Part shown: one piece after another, positions 12,247 through 52,026 of the stretch
Numbering within the stretch: the first letter of the stretch is position 1
How the letters are laid out: the number at the start of each line of letters is the position of its first letter
NCBI RefSeq assembly: GCF_900456975.1
Contig: NZ_UGYM01000002.1
Span: forward strand, 3,782,001-3,846,000
Length of the DNA: 64,000 bases
Reading direction: 5' to 3'
Source: Shewanella baltica
GTDB taxonomy: Bacteria; Pseudomonadota; Gammaproteobacteria; Enterobacterales; Shewanellaceae
Made by a program: the position numbers and the translations under genes
The notes under the pieces: model-generated
Told to the model about the DNA's origin: nothing
The model's input: only the letters and a program-made list of their open reading frames with translations
The model's database searches: none

Positions 12247-13104
12247 TTACGCGATTTGGCCGAAACGCCCTTCTTGATAATCGCGAATCGCCTGCTGAAT
12301 TTCCGCTTGGGTGTTCATTACAAATGGACCCATCTGGACGATTTTTTCACGGATAGGTTTACCGGCAAACAGTAGCATCCCAGCGCCGCGCTCATCGGCT
12401 TTAAGCTTAAGCACACTTTGACTATCGACCACTAAAAACTCGCCCTCATGGTATGACCACTGTGAATCTTCACCCTTGCTTAAGTCACCTTGGTACAAGT
12501 ACAAGGCGACAAACTCATGTTGAGACAAATCAAGCGTGGCCTCAGCGTTTGGCGCTAGGCTCAAATCAGCAATGGCAGCCTCACCCGCTAATCCTTGGAT
12601 AGCCGCACTAATCAGTGGTTGATCTTTAAAGCCCCAATCACCCGCTAAGGCTTTTAAGCTAGCGCCAGTGTTATTGGTCGCTTCAACGCTCGCGCTACCC
12701 GCAGTATCTTGATACTTCGCTGGACGCAGCTTGTCTTTGGCGGGCATGTTGACCCAAATTTGGAATCCATGCAGACCATCGACAGCATCGGCCAGCGGCA
12801 TTTCAGAGTGCACTACTCCGAACCCCGTACTCATCCACTGCACATCGCCGGCACGAATCGCCTTCACATTGCCCATTTGGTCACGGTGCTCAAAACCGCC
12901 CTTACGAATATAAGTGAACGTCTCCATTCCGCGATGGGGATGTGCAGGGAAACCGCCAATAAAGTCTTGTTCATCATCGGATTTTATTTCGTCGATCATC
13001 AAGAAAGGATCAAATTTAGTCGTCACAAAATCGGCGACACGGCGAATATTGACCCCATCACCATCCATCGCGGCTTTAGCGGAAAACTGACTTAATACTT
13101 TCAT
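12247..13104 (-). CDS. Pirin family protein (bicupin, quercetinase-like)
   Basis: The start was set at MKVLSQFSAK, with AGGAG seven bases upstream; the frame stays open 59 codons further but without a matching ribosome site. The 285-residue product has the pirin metal-binding signature FPAHPHRGMETFTY, then GFEHRDQMGN and the HSEM histidine (VVHSEMP), and ends with the pirin C-terminal cupin (GAGMLLFAGKPIREKIVQMGPFVMNT). Bacterial pirins are cytosolic metal cupins; some oxidise quercetin in vitro. The natural substrate is unknown. It is the chromosomal gene bordering the accessory patch at 13.3-15.8 kb. Confidence 0.88.
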   Translation of the reverse strand: MKVLSQFSAKAAMDGDGVNIRRVADFVTTKFDPFLMIDEIKSDDEQDFIGGFPAHPHRGMETFTYIRKGGFEHRDQMGNVKAIRAGDVQWMSTGFGVVHSEMPLADAVDGLHGFQIWVNMPAKDKLRPAKYQDTAGSASVEATNNTGASLKALAGDWGFKDQPLISAAIQGLAGEAAIADLSLAPNAEATLDLSQHEFVALYLYQGDLSKGEDSQWSYHEGEFLVVDSQSVLKLKADERGAGMLLFAGKPIREKIVQMGPFVMNTQAEIQQAIRDYQEGRFGQIA

Positions 13105-13315
13105 TGCTGCTCTCCTATCGGTTGAGCAAAGCGGTGCATGAAAAGCCAAGATCATACGGCTAAGACAAGACGCAAACGCTTTGCTGATGGAGGCAGAATA
13201 ACAAGGAAGTTTACAAAAGAATAACGCGAAATCACGGCCTAAACATTCGATAAAATAGAACGGTAGGCAGTTGATATCCACTCACACAGGTTGGCCATAG
13301 CATTGACTCGTCGAC

Positions 13316-13435
13316 TCACAGACTGTCCGTTCTTGGATGCTCGACCGCCCTGTCTGATGTGAAAGGATTCACAAATGCCGCGATGGCATGGACGCCAAAG
13401 AGCGGCCATCGGGCGGTCGCCTCGCTAATCACCAT
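13316..13435 (-). CDS. Candidate 39-codon small ORF on a complex palindrome
   Basis: An ATG with GGTGA three bases upstream opens a 39-codon frame (begins MVISEATARWPL, ends EHPRTDSL). I do not recognise the peptide. The frame coincides with an unusual nested inverted repeat (13342-13419), so its openness could be a by-product of structured DNA. It points toward the pirin gene 211 bases downstream and follows the attC-like site at 13557. Treat as a weak candidate. Confidence 0.25.
   Translation of the reverse strand: MVISEATARWPLFGVHAIAAFVNPFTSDRAVEHPRTDSL
13342..13419. repeat. Nested inverted repeat able to form a three-way junction
   Basis: An outer 9-bp stem CGACCGCCC (13342-13350) pairs with GGGCGGTCG (13411-13419). 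It encloses two hairpins: TGTGAA/TTCACA with an AGGA loop (13358-13373), and CGATGGC/GCCATCG (13381-13411). All arms are perfect. The shape resembles a folded RNA or a recombination or transposition signal, but I cannot name it. Confidence 0.7.
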
Positions 13436-13556
13436 GGCTCACCGTTTTGGCTTTAGCGTAACCTGTAGATTTAAAAGACATACGCAACACACTTTTTGGA
13501 CGAAAGCTTCTTAGTGCGAATACTCTAATATGTAACTTTCGGATTAAGATTTCTAT

Positions 13557-13616
13557 GGGTAACGCTCGCCATCAGCCGAGCGATGTACGAGCGTCGGTTG
13601 CATGGCATTGTTATAG
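13557..13616 (-). repeat. attC-like site 1 (end of the SDR/Ada-like segment)
   Basis: Read on the plus strand: TAAC (13560-13563), spacer, GCCAT, CAG, CCGA, an apical segment, TCGG, TTGC, ATGGC, ATT, GTTATAG. GCCAT/ATGGC and CCGA/TCGG pair, with three unpaired bases opposite four (CAG versus TTGC), as in the extrahelical-base architecture of integron attC sites. TAAC/GTTA form the outer R boxes. The stop codon of the Ada-like gene lies inside the R box, as is frequent for cassettes. Confidence 0.6.
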
Positions 13617-14453
13617 CGCAACCGGTTCATCACGCATTTTTTCCCATGTTTGAACCATCAGCTTCTTGGTTGGTCCCCAGCGATACCCCCCCAGCGCGCC
13701 ACTTTGCTGGATAACCCGGTGACAGGGGATCAGCAAAGCAACTGGATTTGCTCCAATAGCGTTACCAACAGCCCTTGCAGACCTAGGTGCGCCGAGTGAT
13801 CTGGCGACTTCGGCATAGCTGGCCACAGCGCCCGGTGGTATTTTCAACAAAGCACGCCACACGGCGATCTGGAAATTTGTCCCTGTCACATGGAGCGACA
13901 GCGGACCTTGCCCGGAAGCTGTGTCACTGCTAAAAAAGGCATCAATAGCGTGTCGCGTAGATGCCAAATTTTCTCTGATCGAACTAAGAGGCCAATCGTT
14001 ATGCAAGTCATCCAGTAACTCTTCCATGCTATTGAAGTCCATAAACGCTGCCCGGCAAACACCACGCAGGGTTACAGCCACAAACATGGGCCCCAGTGGG
14101 GTCGGATGGACTCCATACTCGATCTGTACGTCCTTACCTCGATTTTTATACTCGCCAGGTGTGACGGCTTCCAGCTGCACAAAGTGATCATGCAACCTTG
14201 AACTGCCGCTTAATCCAAGCTCATGTGAGACATCAAGCAAGGAGCGGGAATTATCCAGCAATCCTTTGCCCCGCTCCAATGTCAGGACCTGTAAAAAGCG
14301 CTTCGGCGTAGTACCTGCCCAACGACAAAACAGCCTTTGAAAGTGATAAGGACTCAGATGCACATGGGCGGCTATCTCTTCAAGGCTAGGCTGATCAATT
14401 GCCCGCTCAACCAAATAGGCCATAGCGCTTGCGATTCGGTCATAGTCTGACAT
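13611..14453 (-). CDS. Ada-like AraC-type regulator / methylated-DNA-cysteine methyltransferase
   Basis: A 280-residue fusion. The N-terminal AraC-type helix-turn-helix (about residues 1-105; SLEEIAAHVHLSPYHFQRLFCRWAGTTPKRF) is joined to an O6-alkylguanine-DNA alkyltransferase with the active-site motif IPCHRVI near residue 245 and the FQIAVWRALLKIPPG block. It lacks the zinc-cysteine phosphotriester domain of full Ada, so it would repair O6-methylguanine but not sense phosphotriesters in the Ada way. The ATG start has GAGAGG upstream; a TTG five codons earlier is the alternative. It starts 11 bases after the SDR stop on the same strand. Its stop codon is embedded in an attC-like site, pointing to an acquired cassette. 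Confidence 0.85.
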   Translation of the reverse strand: MSDYDRIASAMAYLVERAIDQPSLEEIAAHVHLSPYHFQRLFCRWAGTTPKRFLQVLTLERGKGLLDNSRSLLDVSHELGLSGSSRLHDHFVQLEAVTPGEYKNRGKDVQIEYGVHPTPLGPMFVAVTLRGVCRAAFMDFNSMEELLDDLHNDWPLSSIRENLASTRHAIDAFFSSDTASGQGPLSLHVTGTNFQIAVWRALLKIPPGAVASYAEVARSLGAPRSARAVGNAIGANPVALLIPCHRVIQQSGALGGYRWGPTKKLMVQTWEKMRDEPVAL

Positions 14454-14464
14454 GGGCCGGCCTC

Positions 14465-15229
14465 TCAAACACGATTTATAGATACACCGCCATCGACCAG
14501 CATTGCAGATCCCGTGGTGAAGCTGGAGGCATCGGAGGCAAGGTACAAGGCAGATTGGGCAATTTCATCTGGTGTCGCCATACGCTTAAGAGCATGCAGA
14601 TTATGCACAAATGCCAATGCTTCTGGCGTATTGGCAAACTCACGTCCTGCCGGCGTATCAGTACCACCGGGCAAAAGGGCATTGACCCGGATATTCTGGG
14701 GGCCGTGCTCGGATGCCAGCACCTGAGTAAGTCCAATCAATCCCGCCTTACTGGCTGCGTAGGCTGCCATGCCTGGCATACCTGCGGTGTAACCAACGAA
14801 GGTAGAGGTGAAAATTAACGAACCTCCTTTTCGGGCAGCCATGGCAGGCAACTGGTACTTTGCGCCCAAAAATGCGCTGGTTAAGTTGATCGCAATAACT
14901 TGATTCCAGTCCGTGAGCGACATCTCCGGGACAGGGCCCATAGCACCCAGAATGGCAGCATTGTTAAAAGCGATATCCAGGCCTCCAAAGTGGCTTACTG
15001 CCTTATCTACCAAAGCCTTGGCAAAAGCTTCTTCGCTAACATCACCGGCAAGCGCCAGTGCCTGCCCACCTTCCGTGATGATTAAGTCCACCAGGTCATC
15101 AAGCTCCTTCTGTCGCCTTGCAGCCACCACTACGGCAGCACCTTCTCTGGCAAAAAGCTTCGCGGCTGCGTAACCAATGCCGGTACTGGCACCGGTAACA
15201 ATAGCGACTTTGTTGGCAAGTATGTTCAT
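14465..15229 (-). CDS. SDR family NAD(P)-dependent oxidoreductase
   Basis: A classical 254-residue short-chain dehydrogenase with cofactor motif TGASTGIG (residues 13-20), NNAA near residue 88, catalytic Ser in the TSTFVG segment and YAASK near residue 156, ending in GSAMLVDGG. The Arg pair after the second strand (AARRQ) suggests NADP(H) preference. The substrate is unknown. The ATG has AGAGG upstream. It is followed closely by the Ada-like gene, and both lie between two attC-like palindromes, so this may be a two-gene cassette about 1.8 kb long. Confidence 0.85.
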   Translation of the reverse strand: MNILANKVAIVTGASTGIGYAAAKLFAREGAAVVVAARRQKELDDLVDLIITEGGQALALAGDVSEEAFAKALVDKAVSHFGGLDIAFNNAAILGAMGPVPEMSLTDWNQVIAINLTSAFLGAKYQLPAMAARKGGSLIFTSTFVGYTAGMPGMAAYAASKAGLIGLTQVLASEHGPQNIRVNALLPGGTDTPAGREFANTPEALAFVHNLHALKRMATPDEIAQSALYLASDASSFTTGSAMLVDGGVSINRV

Positions 15230-15340
15230 CGTTATTCCTCTAGGGTCTGCTTGCTATAAAAGGGCATCTGCCCGAACAGAAGCTATATTAGGAGGCGAAA
15301 TAATTACTGCCGACCCGAATCTTGCTGTATTTCAATTGCG

Positions 15341-15395
15341 CTATAACGCCCAAAGCCGCTGCGCGGTACACGTCAGTTGCCTTTGTTTGTTATAT
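15341..15395 (-). repeat. attC-like site 2 (end of the small membrane protein cassette)
   Basis: Plus-strand order: CTATAAC, GCC, CAAAG, CCG, CTG, an apical segment of 12, CAG, TTGC, CTTTG, TTT, GTTATA. CTATAAC/GTTATA, CAAAG/CTTTG and CTG/CAG pair, with three bases (CCG) opposite four (TTGC). This is the same layout and even the same TTGC bulge, eight bases from the R box, as site 1. It begins 19 bases after the stop of the 62-residue gene at 15414. Confidence 0.7.
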
Positions 15396-15413
15396 ACCTT
15401 GCGTAAAAACTTA

Positions 15414-15602
15414 TCAGGCTTTTGATTTGCCATTTTTTGCCAATAAAAATAAGCCAGTTATTGGCGCAAAAAACCATCCCATAAAAAACCATAACCAAGC
15501 ACTTCGTTTAGTATTTTGTGCCCAATGAGCGCAAAAAATACCAAATAGGAATTGAACCAAGCTAACCGTTGCGTAGGCATTTTCTGCAAAACTAACTTCC
15601 AT
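15414..15602 (-). CDS. Small hydrophobic membrane protein, cassette-type
   Basis: A 62-residue protein with two likely membrane segments: VSLVQFLFGIFCAHWA (about 14-29) and AWLWFFMGWFFAPITGLFLL (about 35-54), ending in a basic NGKSKA tail. The pattern Y-A-T-V-x-L-V-Q-F...F-C-A-x-W-A-Q-N-T-x-R-x-x-W-L-W-F-F is one I associate with small hypothetical proteins in integron arrays and elsewhere. No function is known. The gene sits between two attC-like sites on the minus strand with little spare sequence, which fits a single-gene cassette. Confidence 0.6.
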   Translation of the reverse strand: MEVSFAENAYATVSLVQFLFGIFCAHWAQNTKRSAWLWFFMGWFFAPITGLFLLAKNGKSKA

Positions 15603-15630
15603 TTAAAAAGTACTCCTAATCTCATTGGTA

Positions 15631-15723
15631 TATAACGTCTTAGTATTTATGCGCTGCGCTGTTTACCTCATTAGGCCGGTGAAAACGCGCACAGTTAACT
15701 GATTGTATTGCAAAGAAGTTATC
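15631..15723 (-). repeat. Degenerate attC-like site 0
   Basis: On the plus strand TATAAC (15631-15636) and GTTATC (15718-15723) form outer boxes, TCTT pairs with AAGA inside them, and a TTGC lies six bases before the right box, as in sites 1 and 2 (eight bases there). Inner pairing is poor and the apical part is longer. This could be an eroded attC or an attI-like left boundary. Confidence rests mainly on position and the shared boxes. Confidence 0.35.
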
Positions 15724-16288
15724 AGCTTTACTTTAAATACGCACCTAGAAAAACGCTCATGCGCGTTTTTCAAACCTAACACCCACTTAATTAAATATGC
15801 AAGACATTGATTTTGATAGAATTAACTTGAGAAAAAATGAGAAGACGCGCACAAGTGCAGGATAAAAATCGTTCAAAATCCTTATGATTTGAATACGACT
15901 GTATAATTATCCAGTTTTTTGATGGGCAGTAGTGAATTACATCACACAGGCGTAACGATGAAAATGTCTAAGACAGAAAGTACGTTCGTTATAGCTCTAC
16001 TGACAACTTGTTAACTCGTTTTGGGGCAATAACTTTTTAGCTGAACGAACAGCCAAAGGGTTAGTGTAGATTGGTATTGTTGCACCAGTGACCTTCTAAA
16101 ACAGGAATGCTCTAGTTGAGTCCTCAGGGATACTTCTTTTAAAAGAAATAGGCGGCGAGTCACTGGGAAACAATAACAATTCATGCTGCACAACTGACGA
16201 GACCGTTATCTTGAATGGTTAGCCAAGCTTTAGAATGTGACCTTAAAAGTGGTCACATTCAGATTCTCACTTGAATTGAATCTTCAAC
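15724..16288. other. Non-coding stretch at the edge of the accessory patch
   Basis: I see no supportable gene. An AAAAACGC/GCGTTTTT hairpin lies at 15749-15770, followed by ACCTAAC (15774-15780), which matches the integron RYYYAAC box but has no partner. A 60-codon minus-strand frame at 16011-16193 looks random. The region is A+T-rich compared with its neighbours and may be an eroded cassette or insertion remnant. Confidence 0.4.
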
Positions 16289-16492
16289 CTAATCCGGTTT
16301 AAATACGCCGATTACAGCGCCGGTGGCTTTTTCTGTGACCTTTTCATCGGTTTGCTGTTCACGGTAATCACACTCAGTACATTCAACGGTTTCGATGCCG
16401 TTTTCCTTGTAGAGTAAAATGCTGTCTTTGGCGCTGCATTTTGGGCACTTAGCACCGGCTACGAAACGCTTTTTGATTTTAGTGTTTGTCAT
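16289..16492 (-). CDS. yheV: YheV family zinc-ribbon protein
   Basis: The 67-residue product from MTNTKIKKRF matches the YheV family: RFVAGAKCPKCSAKDS, then VECTECDYREQQ, ending IGVFKPD. Four cysteines (CPKC and CTEC) form the zinc ribbon. The start was chosen at the ATG because the longer frame begins with an unsupported TTG; the Escherichia coli homologue is 66 residues. Function is unknown. It is divergent from yheS, as expected from the yheV...yheS neighbourhood of enterobacteria. Confidence 0.85.
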   Translation of the reverse strand: MTNTKIKKRFVAGAKCPKCSAKDSILLYKENGIETVECTECDYREQQTDEKVTEKATGAVIGVFKPD

Positions 16493-51509: not shown

Positions 51510-51759
51510 GATATTCCTCGAATATTAAACAACAAAATTAATAAACGGAGGAGGAAAAGAAATGGCTGTGACGCGCCGCAGTCGGACGCTATTGCAAACT
51601 ATTTCTAGCCTGTGCTCGACTGAGATTCACCCCAGCTGAACGCGAAATGCGCAGTAAGCGATGACTCAAACGAGTGCTTTTAATAGATGCAAAAGTGCGC
51701 TATCTCAAGCAAAGGGTAAAAATAGCCCACGACGACAAACGACAGGGACTGTGCAGTCA

Positions 51760-52026
51760 TCCTCTCCTCTGTCCTTTTGCCTGAGCGTTTCGCGTCGCGG
51801 TTCAATAACACCACGACACTTTCGCCTTCGGCGCCACCTGATCACACTTTAAATTAAGTGCAATTGGCAGTCTCTCCAGAGGCTCGTCCAGTAACAGTCC
51901 ACGCCTATCGGCACCTGAAAGAGTGCTTTGTTTTTATGGGAAGATTCGATTCAATAAAACCGTCGCTTCAAATAAAACCAAAGTTGCCTCGTCGGTGTGG
52001 GGTCAATTCCCCACTCTCCTGCTACC
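51760..52026 (-). promoter_or_regulatory. Tandem glycine riboswitch in the leader of the symporter gene
   Basis: Two aptamers are visible on the minus strand. Aptamer I (about 52025-51893) has GGAGAGTGGGG...CCCCACACCGACGAGGCAAC, then CTTTCAGGTGCC and GGACTGT. Aptamer II (about 51885-51760) has CTCTGGAGAGACTG, GGCGCCGAAGGCGAAA, then CTCAGGCAAAAGGACAGAGGA. These are the glycine class core blocks in the right order. The symporter start is about 250 bases further on. No strong terminator was identified as expression platform. Confidence 0.9.

Follow-up and report, generated by a model that had tools for sequence, protein, structure and literature searches.

A gene cassette cluster of Shewanella baltica with a predicted attI site and no adjoining integrase gene

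A cluster of two gene cassettes was characterized in a stretch of 64,000 nucleotides from Shewanella baltica, here called the window (C2:3782001-3846000 of genome G000, 5.3 Mb). Two predicted attC sites and a predicted attI site lie on its minus strand without an adjoining integron integrase gene (intI), and the conserved sequences around them recur with other genes elsewhere in the genome. The locus is probably a cluster of attC sites lacking an integron integrase (CALIN) on an orphan attI platform, derived from a Shewanella integron that lost intI, with cassettes moved by an integrase (IntI) acting in trans. Below, L and G numbers label loci and genomes, and frame denotes a conserved flank (L2), cargo and attI, without intI. 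The core features of the locus are:

Positions 13515 to 13562, plus strand: conserved flank L2, which runs up to the last attC and stops at its AA|C crossover; profile match 13461-13566, 85.3 bits, window copy in the profile.
Positions 13557 to 13616, minus strand: predicted attC of the Ada-SDR cassette, rank 2 of 519 in the window scan.
Positions 13611 to 14453, minus strand: Ada-like gene with an AraC-type helix-turn-helix and an O6-methylguanine methyltransferase domain; start codon picked by eye.
Positions 14465 to 15229, minus strand: short-chain dehydrogenase/reductase (SDR) oxidoreductase, second gene of the 1784-bp cassette; NF005681 above cut-off.
Positions 15341 to 15395, minus strand: predicted attC of the 62-residue-protein cassette, rank 1 of 519; 15340-15392 shares 81% identity with a resident-integron attC.
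Positions 15414 to 15602, minus strand: gene for a 62-residue protein in the 289-bp cassette; it looks like a small membrane protein.
Positions 15636 to 15778, minus strand: predicted attI without intI, hybrid; attI profile (AT) 137 bits, same sequence beside intI elsewhere.
Positions 15899 to 15914, plus strand: relic LexA (SOS) box CTGTATAATTATCCAG where intI would start, offset from attI as in intI-linked attI sites.
Positions 15915 to 16013, plus strand: segment X, common to orphan attI copies at the intI position in alignments, with matches in other Shewanella genomes.

Candidate attC sites were scored using outer-box matrices and arm pairing. The score was trained on 10 attC sites of the resident integron array (L010), hand-picked among the candidates of a fold scan, which numbered 17 at its loosest cut; the end of one site was adjusted by eye, and an eleventh resident attC, read by eye, has no AAC box and was excluded. 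A scan of both strands of the 64 kb yielded 519 candidates, among which just 15341-15395 (43.5) and 13557-13616 (41.7) reach 40. Training sites score 43.1–51.3 (matrices leave-one-out), and the next independent window candidate scores 38.8. Folding energy alone does not single out the attC palindromes (z-scores -0.2 to -1.9). A fold-based scan of the resident array failed to tell its two strands apart, giving 17 candidates on the array strand and 22 on the control strand at the loosest cut, and 11 and 8 at the strictest. RNAalifold on a MAFFT alignment of the 11 resident attC sites returned no consensus pairs, hence no covariance model. The two predicted sites share the minus orientation, lie 1.7 kb apart and have no integron integrase nearby, which places them in the CALIN class under the distance limits used by the published tool. 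Separately, 49 bases of the attC of the 62-residue-protein cassette (15344-15392) have an 88% match on Enterobacter cloacae plasmid MZ382872.1, in a place annotated as aac(6').

A sequence-only reading had described a cassette cluster lacking an integrase, with three minus-strand attC-like palindromes. Two of these stand. Its weaker site, 15631-15723, is not called attC by the scan and is called attI-like by the AT profile; the frame is also repeated, which that reading did not include. Its remark that no integrase is visible holds for the window, where tblastn found no intI, and fails for the genome, in which one intI over the family cut-off lies 2.15 Mb away (L010). The overlap it described between the Ada-like stop codon and the adjoining site is present, with TAA 13613-13611 within the R'' box, and its cassette lengths of about 1.78 and 0.29 kb agree with measured values of 1784 bp (13563-15346) and 289 bp (15347-15635), crossover to crossover and joined at AA|C (= G|TT). 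No N-Ada domain was matched in the Ada-like protein by domain search, and the 62-residue protein has no Pfam or NCBIfam match. A relative of the SDR-Ada pair is present in an unannotated part of an Aeromonas caviae record. The 62-residue protein has 136 homologues, mainly on short contigs, two of them named from Anaerolineae and Planctomycetota bins.

The AT profile describes the stretch from intI to the first cassette and has nine members, window copy included. Window positions 15644-15778 are 81% identical to this stretch of the resident integron. Upstream of intI and oriented like it, AT exceeds 60 bits at 12 of the 30 best-scoring intI loci fetched; these 12 include G000's own, an AT training member. 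On Shewanella decolorationis plasmid pNi1-3, the attI adjoins an annotated integron integrase that is 91.7% identical to G000 IntI. The third site is predicted to be an attI because the same sequence is found beside intI elsewhere. Intact attI copies carry AATAAAATGTTA with the cassette-strand end CTAATAAAATGTTAG, which fits AATAAAATGTTRRRY, the core printed for attI2 derivatives (PMC12901181). This core is intact in G000 copies such as L117 and L120 and not in the window copy. The window attI is called a hybrid because its 29 bases nearest the crossover (15636-15664) are identical to half of a recurrent attC-like site, which relatives (L043, L044) and further G000 loci (L127, L128) also carry. 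The recurrent site scores 37.7–38.4 in five copies (L043, L127, L128, L133, L124), and we read it as a likely attC although it falls just below the threshold of 40.

The LexA box pattern CTGT..ACAG is kept in all five intI-linked attI sites tested. Its ACAG half is kept in none of 11 G000 orphan attI sites tested (of 13), and a relic is present at an equal offset (119–121) in eight of the 11. A decayed LexA box is the pattern expected if an integrase gene was lost and its operator decayed. At the window locus, X and a dispersed repeat, RU, occupy the position of intI; the locus is not a complete integron, in which intI would adjoin attI. No terminator-like site was found in 15400-16300.

The two flanks had 40 and 32 matches in a search of G000. 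L2, cargo and AT occur in one relative orientation at 10 G000 loci including the window, with cargo of 0.7–8.7 kb and other genes at the other nine. In five more stretches (two in L124, plus L127, L128 and L133), the recurrent attC-like site forms the right edge. Fourteen AT copies of at least 49 bits were found in the G000 stretches examined, one beside intI and 13 without it. Profiles for L2, AT, LU and RU (LU and RU being flanking repeats listed below) were trained on G000 copies, window included, so matches to those copies are partly by construction; relatives, plasmids and the intI loci except G000's own lie outside the training sets. Within 17 L2-bounded G000 stretches totaling 50.5 kb, 17 attC sites score at least 40 on the cassette strand, versus three in 431 kb outside such stretches or on the other strand, one of which comes from a second frame at the same locus.

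Joins fall at AA|C in the rows that parsed, 17 of 20 on the left and 22 of 24 on the right; unparsed rows (L047, L048 and L133 on the left, L047 and L119 on the right) were left out of the join table. Conservation at the crossover is 1.57 bits per base for the first ten attI bases and 1.0 for the last ten L2 bases. On the cassette side it is 0.81 for the nearest ten bases at both edges and, deeper in the cassette, 0.2–0.3 at the attI edge and 0.5–0.3 at the L2 edge. The ten cassette bases by the crossover belong to the recombination box, which constrains their variation.

Other mobile sequences were seen in these arrays. IS91-like units, each a tyrosine recombinase with a rep-type transposase, are present in the resident array (L010 1503-3520) and in another frame (L130 4709-8188). 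L130 also has a reverse-transcriptase-like open reading frame, perhaps of a group II intron (read by eye). A 314-residue recombinase near the copy at 2148113 was considered as an integron integrase and rejected, as its neighbor is a rep-type transposase, the arrangement of IS91-like units, and its identity to IntI is 29%.

Two host genes flank the locus and allow comparison with relatives:

Positions 12247 to 13104, minus strand: pirin-family gene (Pfam PF02678/PF05726), left host flank and bait for 11 named loci (L195-L205).
Positions 16289 to 16492, minus strand: yheV-like DUF2387 gene (Pfam PF09526), right host flank.

Best named matches of the pirin protein are all from Shewanella, with S. 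glacialipiscicola at the top followed by S. morhuae, S. hafniensis and S. oncorhynchi, in a ranking from which records very close to G000 are possibly left out. L2 lies beside pirin in 8 of the 11 named relatives, with one further weak match (L200). Among these eight, AT is present in four and the recurrent attC-like edge in two. Neither L2 nor AT was found at the pirin loci of S. glacialipiscicola and strain HN-41, and in S. jiangmenensis about 100 bp separate pirin from yheV. Compared pairwise with nine loci that have a yheV match, the window has flanks, repeats and frame pieces in common and no cassette gene. The comparison of related strains suggested by the sequence-only reading did not refute it: orthologous loci are alike up to G|TT and different beyond. 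Elsewhere in the window, a glycine riboswitch was detected at 51759-51889 on the minus strand (58 bits).

The attI region (window 15640-16010) matches 55/127 genomes at E<=1e-8, and intI matches 78/127 at E<=1e-60. Genus-wide DNA searches scored 5–6 candidates per genome, and copy counts are therefore lower bounds. The frame was also found on plasmids. An Enterobacter hormaechei IncC plasmid carries a unit of LU, a short motif S (described below), L2, cassettes with attC, attI, relic promoter and S. L330 (NZ_AP019818.1 65431-73576), on an E. hormaechei IncC plasmid, is an integrase-less frame with a predicted fosfomycin-resistance cassette. No intI was found by tblastn within the fetched stretches of L330, L332, L333 and L334 (8 kb for the E. 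hormaechei plasmid). The plasmid gene table describes itself as incomplete. Further matches to the attI region lie on plasmids of Citrobacter freundii (two) and Escherichia coli (one). Given the E. hormaechei plasmid copy, the frame can leave Shewanella.

In the proposed history, a Shewanella integron with an attI2-like attI would have lost intI and kept its attI, a short 3′ flank (L2) and the SOS-controlled promoter of the integrase, which is decaying. This loss would have preceded the spread of the frame. IntI supplied in trans, from G000's own integron or from passing plasmids, would then insert and excise cassettes at attI and between attC sites, and such exchange would lead one locus to carry different cassettes in different species.

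Several results weigh against this explanation. Scores of at least 40 were obtained in 9 of the 17 L2-bounded stretches and in none of the other 8, and AT is absent from four of the eight relatives with L2, two of which have the attC-like edge; our confidence is lowered for these two reasons. The attC score is home-made and substitutes for the IntegronFinder covariance model. The hybrid core of the window attI may not work, and no sigma-70-like promoter was found in 15400-16300. Of the 55 genomes with the attI region, 30 have intI and 25 do not (E<=1e-60), so IntI in trans cannot be continuous in the latter. No cassette-free frame, with L2 joined to attI, was found as an exact pattern in 129 genomes or with a joined query in 127 genomes, six candidates scored in each. 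Matches overrunning the join in G102 and G109 were considered as empty frames and rejected as occupied copies. Sharp match ends obtained with the joined query are not junction evidence, because the query itself is joined there.

Differing cargo might instead arise by homologous recombination between the conserved flanks (L2, attI-X, LU and RU) after interstrain DNA transfer, with IntI idle. Cargo also differs in G002, G006 and G029, which have no intI match at E<=1e-60, as this would allow. Recombination of this kind alone, however, leaves the AA|C end of the common sequence on both sides unexplained, and we consider it rather unlikely. The attI, relic LexA box and cassettes are still in the order expected of a complete integron between pirin and yheV that lost intI by a local deletion, independent of other loci. 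Such a history is improbable, because orphan copies share X in place of intI, both between loci and between species, a pattern that points to a single loss before the spread. No intI remnants, which would favor a local deletion, were found by tblastn in the 11 named loci.

IntI might also have placed the cassettes at ordinary genomic secondary sites; work by Loot from 2024 reportedly describes IntI-mediated insertion at such sites, termed attG. G000 encodes an IntI, and CALINs and single attC sites are scattered in Shewanella genomes (PMC9229058). The window site is no arbitrary GTT, however: an attI of about 140 bp adjoins it, and 13 intI-less copies of at least 49 bits exist, most with the relic SOS box, making attG-type capture very unlikely. 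That the palindromes are terminators or repetitive extragenic palindromic (REP)-like repeats is scarcely credible. Their folding z-scores are weak and many palindromic repeats (LU, RU) lie close by, but they rank 1 and 2 of 519 by the attC-trained score, attC sites are enriched on one strand within L2-bounded stretches, and 15400-16300 holds no terminator-like site. Insertion and excision by IntI in trans on an orphan attI platform remains the explanation we favor.

Outside the frame, further repeats bound the locus:

Positions 13277 to 13461, plus strand: LU, a dispersed palindromic repeat outside the frame (nhmmer 120.6 bits), with other G000 copies by frames or alone.
Positions 13486 to 13514, plus strand: left S site, a 28-bp dyad motif that has a 1-bp indel in this copy; identified by eye from the L2 alignment.
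Positions 16014 to 16041, plus strand: right S site, 31.9 bits.
Positions 16019 to 16213, plus strand: RU, a dispersed palindromic repeat outside the frame (nhmmer 206 bits, window copy in the profile).

The ungapped S matrix misses the left site because of the 1-bp indel. On both strands of the remaining 60.6 kb of the window, no S site reached 12 bits. The loci that the S matrix describes were also used to refine it; independent support comes from the genus-wide pattern count, in which S occurs within three mismatches in 49/127 genomes and a reversed control pattern in 0/127. A terminal inverted repeat between L2 and X was considered and rejected, as profile comparison gave a weak direct repeat (S). 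Tandem copies of LU and RU are frequent, and some copies stand alone (LU in L131, L136 and L137; RU in L129 and L132); Rfam gave no match in 13200-16290 at E<=1, LU and RU included. Paired S sites about 40 bp apart were seen at module ends, on the right in L195, L330, L332 and L334 and on the left in L130.

S also bounds the tandem LU and RU repeats, and it coincides with the ends of exchanged segments. S. morhuae and S. glacialipiscicola have wholly different inserts between flanks that are 95.6% identical on one side and 93.1% on the other. The insert is a frame in one genome and, in the other, a 470-residue gene with neither L2 nor AT; both breakpoints lie inside S in both genomes. At the L120 locus, G002 retains LU and a single RU of the two, but in place of the frame seen in G000 it has a 291-residue gene, with S sites of 13.3 and 22.1 bits on its two sides. 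On IncC plasmid pN069_1, a unit of LU-S-L2-attC-cassettes-attC-attI-relic-S adjoins three genes whose layout seems to resemble the end of a GInt/SE operon. Among the three, a 634-residue protein alone has a recombinase match (26.1 bits vs a Pfam cut-off of 27.1). At E<=1e-30, relatives of this protein were absent from G000 and present in 4/127 Shewanella genomes, two of them distant (27–28% identity). In G097 an S-like site (22.2 bits) is located some 2 kb past the operon, and none was found in the first 9 kb of the G112 contig. We hypothesize that S is a recombinase site; the role stays hypothetical because the occurrence of S near relatives of the 634-residue protein is inconsistent.

These patterns allow a tentative model, which we hold with less than even confidence, of two nested exchange systems in Shewanella. 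The inner would be of integron type. The outer would be S-based, perhaps with an SE/GInt/Tn554-like tyrosine recombinase acting on S, and would swap modules at fixed intergenic loci. The integrase-less integron would be one such module, others being single genes or LU/RU only. One trans integrase would serve many attI docks, forming a distributed integron. Copies of the docking frame with different genes in S. baltica and its relatives suggest a source of some orphan cassettes. Orphan cassettes are common, and if many of them sit on dispersed attI docks, CALIN counts would be dock counts, and tools could search for the dock and not for attC alone.

CALINs are known in Shewanella, from an account of 59 complete Shewanella genomes with CALINs and of 115 single orphan cassettes (PMC9229058), in which section 3.4 makes no mention of a shared attI or flanks. 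Neither shared integrase-less attI frames nor S-bounded modules were met in the literature searched, at title and abstract level and mostly open-access. Like the CALINs and single attC sites lacking an integrase (SALINs) of that account, the window locus has two attC-bounded cassettes and an intI elsewhere in the genome, not nearby. It differs in that a conserved attI with a relic SOS box stands on one side and a conserved 3′ flank on the other, and in the repetition of this frame. S looks like a recombinase site with two inverted half-sites and a short spacer, which may liken it to the paired motif ends, with a 6-bp spacer, of SEs, GInts and Tn554-type elements (PMC10214605, PMC5385486), and on pN069_1 two S sites adjoin a recombinase gene cluster of similar layout; Shewanella has the highest SE discovery rate by genus (PMC10214605). 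Unlike these elements, the window locus has no four-gene recombinase operon. Class 2 and 4 integrons are grouped with the Shewanella chromosomal ones (PMC3108266). The intact attI copies share an attI2-like core with class 2 and Shewanella-type integrons, and the LexA box position is the same; the window, in contrast, has no integrase gene, has lost the second half of the SOS box, and has an attI core fused to an attC-like half. Delta-attI-type cassettes (PMC12901181) likewise have attI-derived sites outside the normal place. In those cassettes, which lie inside arrays, the attC downstream of the gene is replaced by part of an attI, whereas in the window a long attI with a relic promoter heads a stand-alone array.

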